Positions 30,265-54,815 of a DNA stretch of 64,000 nt are shown here, one piece after another. How positions within the stretch are numbered: the stretch's first letter is position 1; each line of letters starts with the position of its first letter. The DNA comes from Schaalia cardiffensis (GTDB lineage Bacteria > Actinomycetota > Actinomycetes > Actinomycetales > Actinomycetaceae), in contig NZ_JAEKIA010000002.1 in the NCBI RefSeq assembly GCF_016405145.1, positions 186,001 through 250,000 on the forward strand. The letters are read 5' to 3'. The notes beneath the pieces are model-generated. The model worked only from the letters and a program-made list of their open reading frames with translations. It searched no databases and was not told where the DNA came from. The position numbers and the translations under genes were made by a program.

Positions 30265-31347
30265 ATGTGGATTGGAAGAAGTGGCGGTTTTGTGCGAGAA
30301 GCTGCGAATCTGTTCCTTCCGACTCGCTGCGCAGGATGTGGAGCTTGGGATGAGGTGGTGTGTACGGAGTGCGCAAAGCAGGTTGAGGCCCCTTGTCATT
30401 GGGGAAGTCTTGAAATGCCGGAGCTCTTCGCCATCTCGGATATTCCTCTGCTTGACGGGGGAGCATATGAGGGGCGGAGGCGAGGTCTCATCGTGTCGGC
30501 GAAGCATTCCCCCTCATTCGACCCTGAAGAACTCCTACGACAATCGGGAATGACTCTCGGTCGGGAACTGGGGCGCATGCTCAAAATCGGGGTGCCCTCA
30601 GCCTTGGCGCAAAGCGTGGGCTCTACTCAGGGAGAGACTTTTGCCCAAGACGCTGGATCTGCCCAAGACGCTGGATCTGCCCAAGACGCTGGATCTGCCC
30701 AAGATGAGGGTTCTGCCCAAGACGCAGGATCCGTCCAGGGGGAGGTTTTTTCGCAAGACACGGGCTCTGTCCAGGACGCGAACTCTGCCCAGGACGCGAG
30801 CTCTGCCCAAGATGAAGGATTTGCCCAAGACACGGGTTCTGTTCAAGATGCAGGATTTGCCCGAGATGCGAGGTGTTCCCACAGGAAGGGGCGCGTACAA
30901 GAGGAGCGAGACGCGCGATTGGGCCGAAGAGCTTTCAGAGATAATGCGGAGCGAAAAGAGCGGCTCGCCTTGGCGAAGGGCACGGAGATCTGGGTCATCC
31001 CCGCTCCTGCCAGCTGGAAACGCCGTCTGTTCGGACGCCAAGTCACTTCCGCCCTCGCTTGTGGGCTCGCTCAGGGATTGAGCCGGGAAACAGGAGTTCA
31101 AGCCAGAGTCGTCGAGGCCGTGGGATTGAGAATCGGAACTCCCTCCCAGTTCGGAGTCGGGGGTGCACAACGGCGCAAAGCGAAGATCGGGTCCATGCGT
31201 GCGCGCCTCCCCTTGCCTGAGCCCGGGAGGATCGTCCTCGTTGATGATGTACTGACGACTGGGGCCACGATGCGAGAGCTCGCAAGGGTGTGCGCAGGGG
31301 CTTTGGCCTGCGCAGTCTTCGCGAGAGTGAATCCCCCATCCCTATGA
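30265..31347 (+). CDS. ComF-family phosphoribosyltransferase with a hexapeptide-repeat insert
   Basis: 360 residues, about 120 more than usual. The N-terminus holds the ComF zinc motif (LPTRCAGCGAWDEVVCTEC). The C-terminal PRTase domain has the PRPP loop RIVLVDDVLTTGATMREL. Between them about 15 tandem hexapeptides of form AQDAGS (residues about 115-204) are encoded by 18-bp repeats and form a likely disordered Ala/Gln/Asp/Gly/Ser linker. ComF proteins act in DNA uptake or are of unknown role in non-competent bacteria. The start codon is ATG at 30265. It is placed between lpqB and hpf as in mycobacteria. Confidence 0.88.
   Translation: MWIGRSGGFVREAANLFLPTRCAGCGAWDEVVCTECAKQVEAPCHWGSLEMPELFAISDIPLLDGGAYEGRRRGLIVSAKHSPSFDPEELLRQSGMTLGRELGRMLKIGVPSALAQSVGSTQGETFAQDAGSAQDAGSAQDAGSAQDEGSAQDAGSVQGEVFSQDTGSVQDANSAQDASSAQDEGFAQDTGSVQDAGFARDARCSHRKGRVQEERDARLGRRAFRDNAERKERLALAKGTEIWVIPAPASWKRRLFGRQVTSALACGLAQGLSRETGVQARVVEAVGLRIGTPSQFGVGGAQRRKAKIGSMRARLPLPEPGRIVLVDDVLTTGATMRELARVCAGALACAVFARVNPPSL
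30607..30876 (+). repeat. In-frame 18-bp minisatellite in comF (about 15 units)
   Basis: Units of 18 bp run without phase loss from 30607 to 30876. Three consecutive copies (30643-30660, 30661-30678, 30679-30696) are identical; the others differ by one to several bases. They encode hexapeptides with consensus AQDAGS. The perfect central copies point to recent slippage. Confidence 0.93.
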
Positions 31348-32567: not shown

Positions 32568-33006
32568 CCCCAAACATGATCTCGGTGCCACCTGGCACCC
32601 CCACGACTCGCCGAAACCATAATCGGGGTTGTTGGAGAGTATGTGGTCCCCATGCGTGCGACCCCAAATATGATCTCGGTGGGTCTGAGTGTCCCTCGGT
32701 CCTGCCGAGAGTGTGATTGGGGTTGTTGGAGAGCGTTCGGTCCTCACGCGTGCGACCCCAAATATGATCTCGGTGGGTCTGAGTGTCCCTCGGTCCTGCC
32801 GAGAGTGTGATTGGGGTTGTTGGAGAGTATGCGGTCCCCACGCATACGACCCCAAATATGATCTCGGTGGGTCTGAGTGTCCCTCGGTCCTGCCGAGAGT
32901 GTGATTGGGGTTGTTGGAGAGTACTCGGTCCTCACGCGTGCGACCCCAAATATGATTTCGGTGCCACCTGGCATCCCCACGCCTCGCCGAAACCATAATC
33001 GGGGTA
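32568..33006 (+). repeat. Array of five 94-bp tandem units with structured linkers
   Basis: Each unit begins CCCCAAA at 32568, 32662, 32756, 32850 and 32944, exactly 94 bp apart. Units 2-4 (type B) are nearly identical and have stems CCCCAA/TTGGGG and TCTCGG/CCGAGA. Units 1 and 5 (type A) share a different core with the hairpin GGTGCC-ACCT-GGCACC and the outer stems CCCC/GGGG. The four linkers all contain the pattern 7-nt arm, GTCC(C/T)CA loop, 7-nt arm. The arms differ but pair fully (two copies) or at 6 of 7 positions. No promoter or protein is evident. Confidence 0.9.
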
Positions 33007-42068: not shown

Positions 42069-45000
42069 TCAGCCGGTAACCGACAAGCGCGAACCTCCGC
42101 GCCCACTGGGCGTCACGGTGATCCTGTCGGGGATCTGCCGGGCCATCTCATCCACGTGACTGATCACGCCGACGACTCGCCCCGAATCCCTCAACTTGTG
42201 GAGCTCGGCCATCACGAGTTCCAGAGTCGCAGAATCGAGAGAACCGAAACCCTCATCAATGAACATCGTGCGCAGCTCAATGCCCCCGGCCTCGGCCGTC
42301 ACCACATCCGCCAGGCCGAGTGCGAGGGACAAAGAGGTATAGAAGCTCTCGCCCCCGGACAGGGTCCGCGGCGAACGCGTCTCTTCGGTGTCGTGGTCGA
42401 CGATCGCCAGGCCGAGGCCTGAACGTCGAGAACGCGTCCCATCATCGGGAGTTGAGACGAGTTCGTAGCGCCCCGAGGAGATGGACAAGAGCCGAGGATT
42501 TGCCGCCGCCAAAACCTCATCGAGGCGAGAGACGAGAACCCACGCGGACAACGGAGTCTGGAGGAGATTCTCTCTCGAAGAGGCGTCTGCGATCCCGGCG
42601 AGTCGCTTGAGGGGGCCGAAGCTGTCACGGACTTCATGAAGCTGGGAGAGGGAATGCGAGAAATCCACCTCGGCGCTCTGGATCTGCTTCAGGGCCTGTT
42701 CCAAGGAGCCAAGTCGACGCTGCGCCTCGTCTTGGCGTTTCTTCGCCTCATTCAGAGCCTCACGCAAAGGCTCTTCATCTGCCGGCACAAGACCTTCCGC
42801 GCGGGAAAGGCGCGAAGAGGCGAGCAGCTGAGTCACAGCCCCGAGCGTGGAATCGTAAGCGGAAACCTCAGCTTCGAGAGCCGTGATCTGTTTTTCGCTC
42901 GCATGGAGTGAACGGATCTCATCGTGCGCTTCAGGAGTGTCTTCGAAACCCCCTTCGTCCAAAGCCGATAGAGCCCTCTCATGTGCTGAAGCTACGAGCT
43001 GCGAACAGTGGAGGAACTCGCTCAGCCCTGAGGAAGCTTCCTTCAAGAGGGTGAGAGCGCGAGTGAGTGCGTCATCCAGGTCGCCCAGTGATTCGGCCTT
43101 CCCCGCGGCCTCAGCGCATCTGCGCTCATCCGCTTCGAGGGATTCTCGCATGGAGGTGATCTCCACTCGTCTCTCCACGAGCTCAACTTCGGCCGCTAAG
43201 CGTTGCTCCTTCACAGCGGCCTCGGTTTCACGTTCTTTCTTCAGATCCGCTTCCAGCTCCGCCTTGAGTTTCTTGACCGCGAAGAGCCTTTCGACCGCCT
43301 TCTGGGCCTCCTCGAGTTCCAAAGAGATCGAGGCCGCGTCGCCTCCGGCCCGCCCATTCGCTTCTTTCACAGCCTCCACCAGGGCCAGGTGCGCGCTTGA
43401 AGCCGCTGTGAAACGCTCATCCGCTTGAGTCTTCGCCCGATCGAGGAGGGTGATTGCGTCTCGTGACAGGTCCTCACCTTCAAGGGCGGGCATGGGGGAG
43501 GGGTGCTCAAGGGAACCGCACACCGGGCAGGCCTGGCCCTCCTCAAGGTCCTGGGCGAGGGCGCTCGCCGTCTGATTGAGCCACTGCTCATGGGCGATCA
43601 TCGCTGTGATCTGTGCGTCACGGGCTGCGGCTTTCGCTTCGCCGAGCGCCTGGGAAGCAGCTTTCATCTCCTCAATGAGGCGGAGCGCATCCTGGGCGGC
43701 GCTCATCCGGGCTTTCACCCGCTCCAAGGCTCCCTCGACCCCTTCGAGTCCGTTAATCTCAGAGGCCATCGCCTCCAATGCTTCTTCCCCCATCGCAATT
43801 CGCTGTGGTGACTCTGCGAGTTGCTCGTCGAGGTGCGCAATTGTCGCTTCGAGTGCTGCGCGTTTTTCAACACGGGCCTCAAGGGCGTGTCGACGATCCT
43901 GGAGTCCGGCTTCGAGGGCGAGGAGCTCACGAATCCGTGCACGCTCCTCGGTTCTCAACTCCTTGTGGTTTTCGATCTGGGGAAGGAAAGAGCGAGCGAG
44001 TTCTTCGCTCAAAGAGGCCTCATCGAAGGTGAGGATCTGGGCGGCGCTGCAGGCTGTCAAAGAGTGGAGAGCCTGCGTGTGAACAGCCTGACGAGCGGCG
44101 AGTGCCTGATCTCGCTGCTCAAGGCTCGGCAGGATCGCTGCGACACGGCGGGCCTGCTCGATCTTCTGGCGAGTGGCGGCGATAGAGGGGCCCTGGGCTT
44201 CAAGAGCCGTCTTCTCTTCGAGGAGACGAGTCCTCTCCTCTACGAGGACCCGATCCTCCTTCGCCTGGGCGAGGGCTTGAGCGGCCTTTTCTGCAGCTTC
44301 AATGAGGGGCGGTTGGGAGGCCCTGGCCTGGTCGAGAAGCTTTTCGGCAGTGGAGACGATGTGTTCGGCCCGTTCTCGGGCCCACCCCTCATCGGCCAGA
44401 GGATCCATGGGGGCACGAGAAGCGTGATCTTCAGGCTCCGGTGAAGGAGTCTCGAGGGACAGTGAAGGAACCTCAGGGGATGCTGAAGGAACCTCAAGGG
44501 ACACTGAAGGAGCCTCAGGGGACGTGGAAGGAACCTCAAGGGATGCTGAAGGTGTCCCTAGAGCTGCGGGGACCTCAATGTCTTTCAATTCCAGGCGCTC
44601 AAGCGCCCCGAAAGCGCGCAGGCACTCTTCTTCGGCGGCGAGAAGCCGGGCCTTGCCGGAGTTTGCCTCACTGACGAGGCGCTTTTGGAAGTCGAGATAG
44701 ACACCCGTTTCGAAGATATCGCGCAGAATGGACTCGCGATCCTCAGACTTCGCGGTGAGGAATTCGGCGAACTTGCCTTGAGGGAGGACAACAGTCTGCA
44801 AGAACTGCTCCTTCGTCAGACCGACGATCCGCTTGATCTCCGAAGAGATCTGGCGGGCACCGCGTTCAATTCCCTCAATGGTGCGGTATCCCTCCGGACA
44901 GGAGGGGTCTTCGATGACGCGTACGAGGCTCGCCTGAGAGTTCCGAGCAGATTTATTCCCCTTCGGCACATACTTCGGAGTCCGGGTCACACGATAGATC

Positions 45001-45266
45001 CCGGCAGGGGTTTCAAAGATGAGGTCGACCTCGCTATGGACCCGGGGTGAGGCGTAGTCGGAGCGTAGACGCTGTGTCGACGCATCCGATTGACGGGCGA
45101 CATCACCGTAGAGAGCGAAGACGATCGCGTCGATGAGCATCGACTTGCCCGCGCCCGTCGGCCCGGCTAAGAGGAAGAGCCCCGCATCGTCGAAGACCGT
45201 GAAGTCGATGACCTCAGTGTCGGCGAAGGGGCCGATCGCGGTGAAAGCGAGTCTGTGGAGCCTCAT
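42069..45266 (-). CDS. sbcC: SbcC nuclease subunit (SMC-like ATPase)
   Basis: 1065 residues. The N-terminal ATPase half has the P-loop LAGPTGAGKSMLIDAIVFAL. Long coiled-coil arms with the zinc hook CPVCGS lie near the middle. The C-terminal half has LSGGESFYTSLSLALGLADV and MFIDEGFGSLD. With SbcD it cleaves DNA hairpins and processes ends. A stretch of heptapeptides rich in Pro/Ser/Glu (about residues 233-275), encoded by 21-bp repeats, interrupts the first coiled coil. The ATG at 45266 overlaps the sbcD TGA. An upstream in-frame start is not used. Confidence 0.93.
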   Translation of the reverse strand: MRLHRLAFTAIGPFADTEVIDFTVFDDAGLFLLAGPTGAGKSMLIDAIVFALYGDVARQSDASTQRLRSDYASPRVHSEVDLIFETPAGIYRVTRTPKYVPKGNKSARNSQASLVRVIEDPSCPEGYRTIEGIERGARQISSEIKRIVGLTKEQFLQTVVLPQGKFAEFLTAKSEDRESILRDIFETGVYLDFQKRLVSEANSGKARLLAAEEECLRAFGALERLELKDIEVPAALGTPSASLEVPSTSPEAPSVSLEVPSASPEVPSLSLETPSPEPEDHASRAPMDPLADEGWARERAEHIVSTAEKLLDQARASQPPLIEAAEKAAQALAQAKEDRVLVEERTRLLEEKTALEAQGPSIAATRQKIEQARRVAAILPSLEQRDQALAARQAVHTQALHSLTACSAAQILTFDEASLSEELARSFLPQIENHKELRTEERARIRELLALEAGLQDRRHALEARVEKRAALEATIAHLDEQLAESPQRIAMGEEALEAMASEINGLEGVEGALERVKARMSAAQDALRLIEEMKAASQALGEAKAAARDAQITAMIAHEQWLNQTASALAQDLEEGQACPVCGSLEHPSPMPALEGEDLSRDAITLLDRAKTQADERFTAASSAHLALVEAVKEANGRAGGDAASISLELEEAQKAVERLFAVKKLKAELEADLKKERETEAAVKEQRLAAEVELVERRVEITSMRESLEADERRCAEAAGKAESLGDLDDALTRALTLLKEASSGLSEFLHCSQLVASAHERALSALDEGGFEDTPEAHDEIRSLHASEKQITALEAEVSAYDSTLGAVTQLLASSRLSRAEGLVPADEEPLREALNEAKKRQDEAQRRLGSLEQALKQIQSAEVDFSHSLSQLHEVRDSFGPLKRLAGIADASSRENLLQTPLSAWVLVSRLDEVLAAANPRLLSISSGRYELVSTPDDGTRSRRSGLGLAIVDHDTEETRSPRTLSGGESFYTSLSLALGLADVVTAEAGGIELRTMFIDEGFGSLDSATLELVMAELHKLRDSGRVVGVISHVDEMARQIPDRITVTPSGRGGSRLSVTG
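44442..44567 (-). repeat. In-frame 21-bp minisatellite in sbcC
   Basis: Six units of 21 bp start at 44442, 44463, 44484, 44505, 44526 and 44547 (plus-strand form TGAAGGAACCTCAGGGGATGC with changes). They encode heptapeptides of type LEVPSAS/PEVPSLS. Confidence 0.9.
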
Positions 45267-46471
45267 TGGAGCCCCTCCTTCCTCATATCCGTCCACACGT
45301 CCGAGACGATCTGGGCTTCCCTCGCATCGAGTTCCCTGCCGCCAACGGCCGCAAAGAAGTCGAGAGTCACCTCCTGCGGGGCCCTGGAGCGAACGCCCGG
45401 CGCGCCAGAGGGGATCGAGGATCGGATCGCGGACTCGTGAAGGATGACGAGGGCGTGGGGGTAGACCTCGCGGATGCGGGAAACCATCTGCTGCGGTCGA
45501 GCATCGTCAGTGACGCTGATCGAACAATAGGCGTTGACGAGCGCAGGATCCGGGTCGGCCAGGAGGTCTTCCATCGTTCCCCTGAGGAGGGCAAGGGGCC
45601 TGTGGACCGGAATCGGCACGAGCTCAATCTCGCACGAGTCCCCGTGCACATCGAGGAGGACAACGGACTTATCGACGCCCGCCTCGGAAAAGGAATAGGC
45701 GATGGGGGACCCTGAATATCGCAGGGGCATCCGGGCGCCCGAAATGCTCTGGGGACGGTGCAAGTGCCCGAGCGCTGCGTACACAACACCCAAGTCGATC
45801 TGCTCTTCCCCGCCGAGAGTGTCAAGCAGAGCGGCTGGCACACAGCCCACTCCGCCGACCTCGATCACTCGCTCCGAATCTGAGGGGGCGCCCCCGGTCA
45901 AGAACTCGTGAAGCATGACGATCGCCGGACGCTGATCGCCCGCTTCCCGTCGAAGCTCAAGATCGGCGCGGACTCGCCGAAGAGCGGCCGCGACGACGGC
46001 CTCATGGGAGCGGGGCAGGGGAGCGGGAAGACCAGAGTCGAGTGGAGCAAGATCGGAGAGCTCTTGGCGGACAAGATCCGGCTCCAAATAAGGGATCGGG
46101 TAGATCAGACAGCCCCCTGGGCCCCCGTGCTCGACGGCGGTGCCGATCGTGTCGACCCCGGTCGTCACGACGAGGCGCTGATCCAACATGGGGGAGAAAA
46201 GCCCCAGGCGCGTCGCACTGTCATGGTTGCCTGAAGTGATGATGACGCGGGCCTTCGCACTGAGCTCTTCGAGCATCTTCGAGGTTCTCGCGAGGGCGTT
46301 CAGGGGTGGCACCGCACGGTCGAAGAGGTCTCCACTGATGAGGACGAGCTCGATCGAGCGCGCCTCGACGAGCTGAAGAAGCCAGGAGAAGAAGGCATCG
46401 ACAGAGTCGGAAAGGTCTTGCCCGTGGAGAGTACGTCCGATATGCCAATCGGAGGTGTGAAGGATCCTCAT
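45263..46471 (-). CDS. sbcD: SbcD exonuclease subunit
   Basis: 402 residues. The calcineurin-type phosphoesterase motifs are all present: MRILHTSDWHIGRTLHG (D-x-H), LVLISGDLFDRAVPP (GD), ITSGNHDSATRL (GNHD) and YAALGHLHRPQ (GHxH). It forms the SbcCD nuclease with the following gene. The ATG at 46471 matches the family start; 77 more upstream codons are open but lack conservation. TTGGAGC directly precedes the ATG, and GATACT lies 6 nt away, so a leaderless start is possible. Confidence 0.94.
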   Translation of the reverse strand: MRILHTSDWHIGRTLHGQDLSDSVDAFFSWLLQLVEARSIELVLISGDLFDRAVPPLNALARTSKMLEELSAKARVIITSGNHDSATRLGLFSPMLDQRLVVTTGVDTIGTAVEHGGPGGCLIYPIPYLEPDLVRQELSDLAPLDSGLPAPLPRSHEAVVAAALRRVRADLELRREAGDQRPAIVMLHEFLTGGAPSDSERVIEVGGVGCVPAALLDTLGGEEQIDLGVVYAALGHLHRPQSISGARMPLRYSGSPIAYSFSEAGVDKSVVLLDVHGDSCEIELVPIPVHRPLALLRGTMEDLLADPDPALVNAYCSISVTDDARPQQMVSRIREVYPHALVILHESAIRSSIPSGAPGVRSRAPQEVTLDFFAAVGGRELDAREAQIVSDVWTDMRKEGLQ

Positions 46472-47668: not shown

Positions 47669-47786
47669 GCTCCAAAGGTATCGCCCCAGCGGGGTAAGTG
47701 GTGCCTTCTACGCTCAGGTGGACGCCCCGGTCCCGGGACAAGAAATCCGTCAGAACAAACAGTAACCTTCGCGAGGACGGACGCCC

Positions 47787-47946
47787 CCGGCCTCGGGAGG
47801 GGAAAGACCACAGAAAACGCAACATCCCGGCCTCGGGAGGTGAAAGACCTCGGGAAATGCAACATCCCGGCCTTGGGAGGTGAAAGCCCTCGGGAAACGC
47901 AACACCCTGTCCCCGAGAGACGACAAGCCCCGAGAAACGAAAAGCC
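47787..47946. repeat. 40-bp tandem repeats between rsgA and hisN
   Basis: Units start at 47787, 47827 and 47867 exactly 40 bp apart (CCGGCCTCGGGAGGTGAAAG core), and a fourth, diverged unit starts near 47907. They fill most of the 332-base gap between the rsgA end and the hisN start. No gene is supported in it. Confidence 0.85.
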
Positions 47947-48000
47947 CCGAGAAGTGAACGGCCCAAACCTTAGGACGCGAAAACACCCCACCCCAAGGGT

Positions 48001-52746: not shown

Positions 52747-53439
52747 TCAGTGTCCTTGAGCGAGGACCGAATCGAGGTCGGCGACCCCGGTGCGCAGCGC
52801 GTACAAGACGAGCTGGACGCGGTCTCGAGCCCCCGTTTTCACAAGCAGATGCGAGACATGCGTCTTGATCGTCGGCATGGACACCCACAATCGGTCGCAC
52901 ATCTCCTGGTTCGTCAGCCCCTGCGCGATGAGGGCGAGGACCTCCACTTCCCTTTCGGTCAACTCAGCTGAGATGGGCTCGCTCGGGGCACGCTCCCTTG
53001 AAGTCCGGCTCGGGGCCGTGGTTTCGCGCATCGCGCGGATCAGACGGCGCGTCGGTCCAGGGGAGATCACCGAGTCTCCGGAGGCGAGCGTGCGGATCGC
53101 GTCAATGAGGCTCTGCGGAGGGGTGTTCTTCAAAAGGAAACCCGAAGCTCCCGCCTCAATGGCGCCAAGGACATAGCCCTCGGTGTCGAAGGTCGTGAGG
53201 ATGACGATCCTGCCGGACAGCCCCCGGGAGACGAAGCGCCGCGTCGCCTCCAGACCATCGCAGAGGGGCATTTGCACGTCGAGGAGGAGAACATCGACGG
53301 AGGAGCGGGCCGCCAAGTCCAGAGCCTCTTTCCCATTCCCGGCCCGCCAGGAAACCTCCATGTCCTCTTGCGCGTCCAGGAGCATCGCAAGTCCCGCTAA
53401 GAACAAGGGCTCATCGTCGGCCATCCCGATGCGGATCAT
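52747..53439 (-). CDS. NarL/LuxR-family response regulator
   Basis: 230 residues. The receiver has RIGMADDEPLF, VDVLLLDVQMPLCDGLE with the phospho-Asp, and FLLKNTPPQSLIDAI with the conserved Lys. A LuxR HTH ends the protein (LTEREVEVLALIAQGLTNQE then MCDRLWVSMPTIKTHVSHLL). ATG at 53439 has AAAGGAGAAG and overlaps the stop of the upstream kinase. Nineteen more open codons upstream are not used. It is probably activated by the kinase at 53436-54815; targets are unknown. Confidence 0.93.
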   Translation of the reverse strand: MIRIGMADDEPLFLAGLAMLLDAQEDMEVSWRAGNGKEALDLAARSSVDVLLLDVQMPLCDGLEATRRFVSRGLSGRIVILTTFDTEGYVLGAIEAGASGFLLKNTPPQSLIDAIRTLASGDSVISPGPTRRLIRAMRETTAPSRTSRERAPSEPISAELTEREVEVLALIAQGLTNQEMCDRLWVSMPTIKTHVSHLLVKTGARDRVQLVLYALRTGVADLDSVLAQGH

Positions 53440-54815
53440 TTCTTCTCCTTTCCGCTGCCCGGGCCTTCGGCGGGCAAGTGGGCACGCACGAGCCAACGCC
53501 CATCACTTCTCGGAGCGGCGTGGAAGGTACCGCCAAGGGCTTCGGCGCGCTCACGCATCGTCGTCAATCCCGTCCCGACCCGGGGCCCGTCCCCTGCCTT
53601 GGAGCCGTCCTGAGGAGCGTGAGAGCCGTCCTGAGGAGCGTGAGAGCCGTCCTGAGGAGCGTGAGAGCCGTCTTGAGGGGCGCAGGCTTTCTGCGCAGAG
53701 CACACCGACACATCGACACCCTCGGCCCGCACCTTCATATCGACGAGGACGGGGCCAGCGCCATGACGCATAGCATTGGATAAGGCCTCGTGCACGATCC
53801 CCGAGCACGCCGCATCCACTGAGGCCGGGACAGAAGAATCCGCCTCAAGGGTCAAACGGATGTCGAGTTGGGCAGCACGAACCCGCTCGAGGAGGCCGAT
53901 GAGCCCTGCAAGTCCTGTGCGCGTCTCAGGTGCTAAGGGGGCTCTCCCTGAAGAACACTCGCCTGCGAGAAGAGGGACGCCAGGACCCTCAATCCCAACC
54001 GAAGAGTCCACCTGTTCGGACTCCTCCTCCCTTAAGACATCAACGAGACGTCTGAGGTCATCAATGCCGACCCGGCTCAACTCCCCGATCGTGGCGAGGG
54101 CCTCCTCGGCCCGAGTCGGGTCGGCGGCGAGCATCGCCCGGGCCCCTTCGGCCTGCATTCCAATGACCGCCAGGGAATGCCCGAGGAGATCGTGGACATC
54201 ACGAGCGATCCTTTGACGCTCCTCAACGACGGCCAGACGCCTGCGATCCTCCGCATGGGCCGCGAGCTCTTCGGCTCGGGCGATCGCCTGCTCCACCCGG
54301 TCGCGTCTCCTGCGCCGGTTGAGCCCCCACAAGTAGGCCACCCCGATGAGGGACCAGGCGGCGATGAGGACGAAGAACAGGCGCGTGAACAGCGCAATCT
54401 CCTCATTGAACAGGGGGGAGACCCTTAACGCCGTCGCAGCCGATCCGAGGGCCAGGACTGCGAGCAGCCCCCACGACCAGGGGCGGGCGATTCTCGACCC
54501 GATCGTCTCAGCCGCCACGAGGCAGAGCACGATGGAGAGCACAGAGAGGGAGTCGAAAACGAGCAGATGGAGGGCGAGCATCCCCTCAATGAGGATCACA
54601 GAAAGTAAGGAGTGGCGCGTTCGCACCGCTACTGCCGCGCAGCACACCAGGGTGAAGACCCCGAAGAGAGGAAGCTCAGCCTCGGGGCCGAGGGCTTCGC
54701 CGACACTGGAGAGCGGGGGCGTGAAAGCATGCAGATTCGTGGCAGTGACGAGGCCGAGGAGGCCTGCGCTCACAAGATCGGCGCCGCGAAAGGAGGGGAG
54801 TCGGGGCTGTGGCAC
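53436..54815 (-). CDS. NarL-type sensor histidine kinase with repeat in its ATP-binding domain
   Basis: 459 residues. Four to five membrane helices lie in the first 150 residues (DLVSAGLLGLVTATNLHAFT). The HisKA_3 H-box is RQRIARDVHDLLGHSLAVIG, and the N-box is IVHEALSNAMRHG. Four heptapeptides of type APQDGSH then occur where the Asp-x-Gly box and ATP lid are expected, followed by GTGLTTMRERAEALGG. The usual NDGxG is not recognisable before the repeats, so nucleotide binding may be altered. It is coupled to its response regulator (ATGA overlap). GTG start; ribosome site weak. Confidence 0.88.
   Translation of the reverse strand: MPQPRLPSFRGADLVSAGLLGLVTATNLHAFTPPLSSVGEALGPEAELPLFGVFTLVCCAAVAVRTRHSLLSVILIEGMLALHLLVFDSLSVLSIVLCLVAAETIGSRIARPWSWGLLAVLALGSAATALRVSPLFNEEIALFTRLFFVLIAAWSLIGVAYLWGLNRRRRRDRVEQAIARAEELAAHAEDRRRLAVVEERQRIARDVHDLLGHSLAVIGMQAEGARAMLAADPTRAEEALATIGELSRVGIDDLRRLVDVLREEESEQVDSSVGIEGPGVPLLAGECSSGRAPLAPETRTGLAGLIGLLERVRAAQLDIRLTLEADSSVPASVDAACSGIVHEALSNAMRHGAGPVLVDMKVRAEGVDVSVCSAQKACAPQDGSHAPQDGSHAPQDGSHAPQDGSKAGDGPRVGTGLTTMRERAEALGGTFHAAPRSDGRWLVRAHLPAEGPGSGKEKK
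53602..53685 (-). repeat. In-frame 21-bp minisatellite in sensor kinase
   Basis: Four 21-bp units (53602, 53623, 53644, 53665). The first three are identical (plus-strand GAGCCGTCCTGAGGAGCGTG + A); the fourth is diverged. They encode the heptapeptide APQDGSH and relatives. Confidence 0.94.

Follow-up and report, generated by a model that had tools for sequence, protein, structure and literature searches.

In Schaalia cardiffensis, a 21-bp minisatellite has, with a probability of about 0.8, grown in frame within the variable and probably disordered lid linker of a DesK-type histidine kinase that was already without its D-box aspartate, with a nil-to-mild effect on the enzyme. As the D-box motif appears to have been lost earlier and similar repeats are present in other genes, the array is probably a product of ordinary repeat growth and not a dedicated switch. 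The analyzed window (the whole stretch of DNA under study, 64,000 nucleotides) contains the following features of interest, with positions given in window coordinates:

53436..54815, minus strand: DesK/NarX-type (HisKA_3) membrane sensor histidine kinase, 459 aa, GTG start (open reading frame, Pfam, and fold match).
53697..53705, minus strand: degenerate D-box (G1) site V371-C372-S373, with Ser where Asp is usual (alignment A1 and kinase survey; coordinates from the reading frame).
53577..53696, minus strand: entire 40-aa linker (residues 374-413) between the D-box site and the G2 box (kinase survey and AlphaFold; coordinates from the reading frame).
53598..53681, minus strand: 21-bp coding tandem array of four in-frame units, residues 379-406, in the ATP lid (TRF, unit search, and reading frame).
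53565..53576, minus strand: intact G2 box GTGL, residues 414-417 (G414 and G416 invariant in 10/10 sequences of alignment A1).
52747..53439, minus strand: NarL/LuxR-type response regulator (open reading frame; family by reading of the translation).

The kinase carries a HisKA_3 domain (PF07730, 69.1 bits, E-value 4.9e-19, cut-off 24), while its HATPase_c domain scored 23.4 bits, below the curated Pfam cut-off of 26.4, and was accepted despite this score based on the invariance of N347, G414, and G416 and on the fold match. Together with the DesK/VraS-like fold of the ATP domain, the HisKA_3 score supports the sensor kinase identity proposed in the sequence-only reading. The phosphoacceptor histidine (H208) and the adjoining NarL/LuxR-type regulator are those of an HPK7 (DesK/NarX-type) kinase, while the DxGxG (G1/D) box of this class is missing, Ser373 replacing the Asp. 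H208, N347, H351, G414, and G416 were invariant in all ten sequences of alignment A1. Among 34 other genomes of the genus, full-length matches to the kinase with > 60% identity were found only in G007 and G008, and these were used as orthologs (L008 of G007, L002/L007 of G008). The order of genes is kept in both genomes (sigma factor, anti-sigma-like, regulator, kinase, GDSL-like, and Kgd-like, the neighbors being named from reading of their translations), the distance between the kinase and the GDSL-like gene being ~0.4 kb here vs. ~2.7 kb in G008/G007. The ATG of the regulator overlaps the kinase stop codon (ATGA), and the regulator shares 82.5% and 81.7% identity with its counterparts in G008 and G007, respectively.

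The array spans 84 bp and consists of four 21-bp units; TRF run on the window placed it at 53602-53682 (period 21, 3.9 copies, 96% match, score 148). In the frame of the gene, units 2 and 3 are identical to each other, the first unit differs from these two by two synonymous changes, and the last one by a single synonymous change and its final codon, the encoded peptide being APQDGSH three times followed by APQDGSK. When phased on the plus strand, the array divides into three identical units (53602-53664) and one diverged unit (53665-53685), which is how the sequence-only reading had described it. Searching for the 21-bp unit with ≤ 3 mismatches returned four adjacent matches in the window vs. 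none in 100 dinucleotide shuffles, and these four were also the sole matches in the whole 2.24 Mb genome, where a backwards-read control pattern gave one. A dispersed or mobile unit was also considered and was rejected because the genome holds no further copy of the 21-mer at ≤ 3 mismatches.

No DxGxG motif was found between the N-box and the G2 box of the kinase, either in the translation or in A1, in agreement with the earlier statement that no motif of this type precedes the array, and the alignment places Ser373 at the D-box site. The array, which had been proposed to occupy the position of both the D-box and the lid, is indeed in the lid, but the D-box site lies upstream of it, as the first repeat begins six residues after Ser373. 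Ser is also present at this site in both repeat-free orthologs (VSS and VFS), while the remaining seven, more distant homologs of A1 have Asn. Replacement of the D-box by the array was rejected, because L002/L007 (G008) and L008 (G007) are without the aspartate and without the repeat as well, and the suggestion that the repeat stands in for this motif is not supported. With Ser in the orthologs and Asn in the distant homologs, the comparison indicates that the aspartate was lost before the array arose.

The presence of the aspartate was also surveyed in 34 parsed HisKA_3 kinases (this one included), in which the D-box position is occupied by Asn in 24, by Asp in 6, and by Ser in 4, a non-random sample (119 matches in 34 genomes yielded loci for only 30) with many near relatives, from which duplicates were dropped. 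The DxGxG motif is therefore not a defining trait of the sampled group. Residues were read by eye from the parsed options, using the first option in each row with the exception of L065 (second option, VRDDG); L003 and L004 were drawn from a separate search, and L021 and L022 were skipped, the latter having Asp by eye (KDCGNG). The form V-x-N-D-G, instead of the usual V-x-D-x-G, was observed in 12 of the 34 kinases (L019, L060-L062, L066, and L068-L074).

The linker between the D-box site and the G2 box counts 40 residues in this protein and 34, 19, 19, 17, 15, 15, 13, 11, and 11 in the other members of A1, which makes the lid a highly variable site. In both orthologs (G008 and G007) it has 15 residues and no repeat, and the 34-residue linker (L009) is repeat-free as well; in the ten sequences of A1 the array is absent from both orthologs and from the seven further homologs. 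The AlphaFold model built with A1 as input (10 sequences) had a mean pLDDT of 76.6 and a pTM of 0.45, with ATP-domain strands and helices modeled on either side of residues 377-412 and a mean pLDDT of 84-91 in the nearest modeled blocks (351-370 and 421-450). For residues 377-412 the pLDDT was < 50, a value that is compatible with disorder and does not prove it, as well as derived from a shallow alignment; the model suggests that the linker over the ATP pocket is probably disordered. The position of the array in the lid region, where a change in copy number would act in steps of seven residues, had been recognized from the letters of the DNA and is consistent with A1, the reading frame, and the AlphaFold model.

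Repeats were also observed in other genes of this genome. A ComF-like phosphoribosyltransferase (ORF 30265-31347) contains ~12 18-bp repeats of the AQDAGS type in an insert (30640-30872, plus strand), and the stretch between its conserved flanks counts 148 residues vs. 21-38 in 6/6 relatives; the unit AQDAGS resembles the APQDGSH of the kinase, perhaps by chance. A SbcC-like ATPase (ORF 42069-45296) has 21/42-bp repeats with PSASLEV-type units in a linker (44442-44552, minus strand) that counts 91 residues with the array vs. 43-84 without visible repeats in 6/6 relatives, the longest of these (84 residues) being that of G008. The case for this gene as a second example of growth was weakened, as the length of its linker varies among relatives too; what marks it out is therefore the presence of an array and not the length, which leaves comF alone among the other genes checked with clear growth. 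Judged from these lengths, the case for growth is strong in comF and weak in the sbcC-like gene. In a second HisKA_3 kinase of this genome (ORF 13536-15089 of L034), the C-terminal tail contains a 21-bp array (IPHDAPN-like, 2.8 copies; L034 15012-15071, plus strand). The in-frame arrays of comF, the sbcC-like gene, and the second kinase favor a general process over a control specific to the kinase. Two further sites in the window were recorded: a strong 94-bp array at 32625-32963 (3.6 copies, 92% match), with a period that is not a multiple of three and a longest overlapping ORF of 191 aa, and 40-bp (3.0 copies) and 17-bp (2.5 copies) arrays at 47786-47953, just past the 3' end of a RsgA-like gene.

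Array densities were compared between 304 kb of this genome (the window plus 12 stretches, on four contigs) and 240 kb of G007 and G008 taken around the orthologous region, so that the counts represent a sample. At a TRF score ≥ 80, 30 arrays were found here vs. 4 in G007 and G008 (p = 8e-5, ~six times more), and the difference persisted when the window was excluded (20 in 240 kb vs. 4 in 240 kb, p = 0.0015). At a score ≥ 100 the counts were 20 vs. 2 (p = 8e-4; p = 0.007 without the window), whereas at a score ≥ 50 no difference was seen (55 vs. 39, p = 0.68), and G008 exceeded this genome in arrays per base. The excess is confined to high-scoring arrays. A literature search on minisatellites in Actinomyces/Schaalia found nothing relevant.

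If the array is the product of ordinary in-frame growth, slippage or unequal recombination would have lengthened it in a weakly constrained loop, and a filter would have preserved the reading frame; His208, the N-box, the G2 box, and the neighboring regulator are conserved. A single unit would give a linker of 19 residues, near the 15 of the orthologs, and the three extra copies would lengthen this flexible, hydrophilic loop by 21 residues. The kinase would remain active with the array in its lid; such tolerance is an assumption, because the lid is near the catalytic site. The expected effect on kinase activity would range from nil to mild, and the copy number probably differs between strains. 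The three synonymous differences and one changed last codon within the array could perhaps point to selection acting on the encoded peptide.

A copy-number switch would imply that slippage-driven steps of seven residues in the lid tune ATP binding or lid closure and generate heritable, reversible kinase states in the population. The array is in frame and within the lid, its near-identical copies are prone to slippage, and, as in contingency loci, the gene contains a tandem repeat, which was detected by both TRF and the unit search. Precedents exist in the lid repeats of MutL (PMC2955026) and in tolA (PMC3477136): in the former, 6-bp (GCTGGC)3 repeats (LALALA) are described in the region forming the lid over the ATP pocket, and changes in their number interconvert functional and defective alleles (PMC2955026), while for the in-frame repeats of E. 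coli tolA an influence of copy number on stress tolerance and a contraction frequency of 6.9e-5 are reported (PMC3477136). We nevertheless regard such a switch as unlikely here, considering the low predicted order of the array, its absence from both orthologs and the seven further homologs, and the larger array of like kind in comF, a gene not expected to be switched; a repeat kept at the same gene position in related species, as in a lid switch of the MutL type, was not observed. Among the papers listed in literature searches, none described a histidine kinase with a lid repeat, judging by titles and abstract openings, which is no proof of absence, and PMC12817950, the subject of which is promoter repeats in M. 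tuberculosis, serves as background only.

Still less probable is a decaying or inactive kinase (a phosphatase-only or pseudo-kinase sensor), in which the repeat would be a sign of lost constraint. The missing Asp of the D-box and the HATPase_c score below the Pfam cut-off would fit such a state, but the repeat-free orthologs lack the Asp too, Asn and Ser are frequent among the sampled relatives, the five residues H208, N347, H351, G414, and G416 are invariant in 10/10 sequences, and the adjoining regulator is ~82% conserved. In addition, VanS kinases, whose G1 box carries Asn, bind ATP weakly and still autophosphorylate (PMC10017428), and an attempt to restore the Asp yielded unstable proteins and no evidence of a raised affinity (PMC10017428). 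We give even less credence than to decay to a graded dial, in which slippage would produce cells differing by seven lid residues, so that the affinity for ATP or the kinetics of the lid would vary by degrees; lacking its D-box aspartate, the kinase would be unusually lid-dependent. If true, a two-component system would here be controlled by a MutL-like lid switch. An assembly artefact (wrong copy number or an unreal array) is scarcely credible, since the two outer units differ from the identical middle pair and an ordinary short read is longer than the 84-bp array, even if the assembly is a draft of 34 contigs and tandem arrays are usual sites of error.

The analysis separates two traits that had seemed linked, i.e., an older loss of the aspartate, frequent among related kinases, and a lid repeat so far seen in one genome. 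The genome is rich in high-scoring minisatellites, some of them in frame within linkers of conserved enzymes; such arrays are natural length variants that could be used for gauging the extent of loop lengthening tolerated by an enzyme, and the minisatellites are possible markers for strain typing.

Among known systems, DesK of Bacillus subtilis (PDB 3gif, 3ehg, and others) is alike in the dimerization helices by sequence and in the ATP-binding domain by fold. In a sequence search of solved structures, DesK was matched over the dimerization helices (residues ~170-262), and the ATP domain gave only a weak match (residues 412-435). By structure, the modeled ATP domain superposed on DesK 3ehg with a TM of 0.75 and on VraS 4gt8 with a TM of 0.71, whereas whole DesK cytoplasmic chains superposed poorly on the model (TM 0.42-0.53, all values by target length), which may be expectable with mobile domains. 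VanS belongs to a different kinase subfamily, MutL and histidine kinases have the GHKL ATPase fold in common, and the tolA repeats are, to our knowledge, not located in a catalytic domain.

VanS kinases share with this protein the replaced G1-box aspartate and, probably, a partly disordered ATP lid, although they have Asn where Ser is found here, and the part of the paper available mentions no repeat (PMC10017428). The Asn variant is called rare there (PMC10017428), whereas it is the commonest among the kinases sampled here (24/34). The intragenic repeats of tolA are likewise coding tandem repeats kept in frame, with strain variation and phenotypes that have been measured (PMC3477136), while the kinase array is known from the sequence of one genome. 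For mutL, a change in copy number by slippage was shown to switch function and the repeat is conserved in Salmonella, E. coli, and Shigella (PMC2955026), whereas the kinase array, with its 21-bp unit, is known from sequence alone and from a single genome; the mutL of Salmonella/E. coli and this kinase gene both encode an ATPase with in-frame tandem repeats in the lid that covers its ATP pocket.
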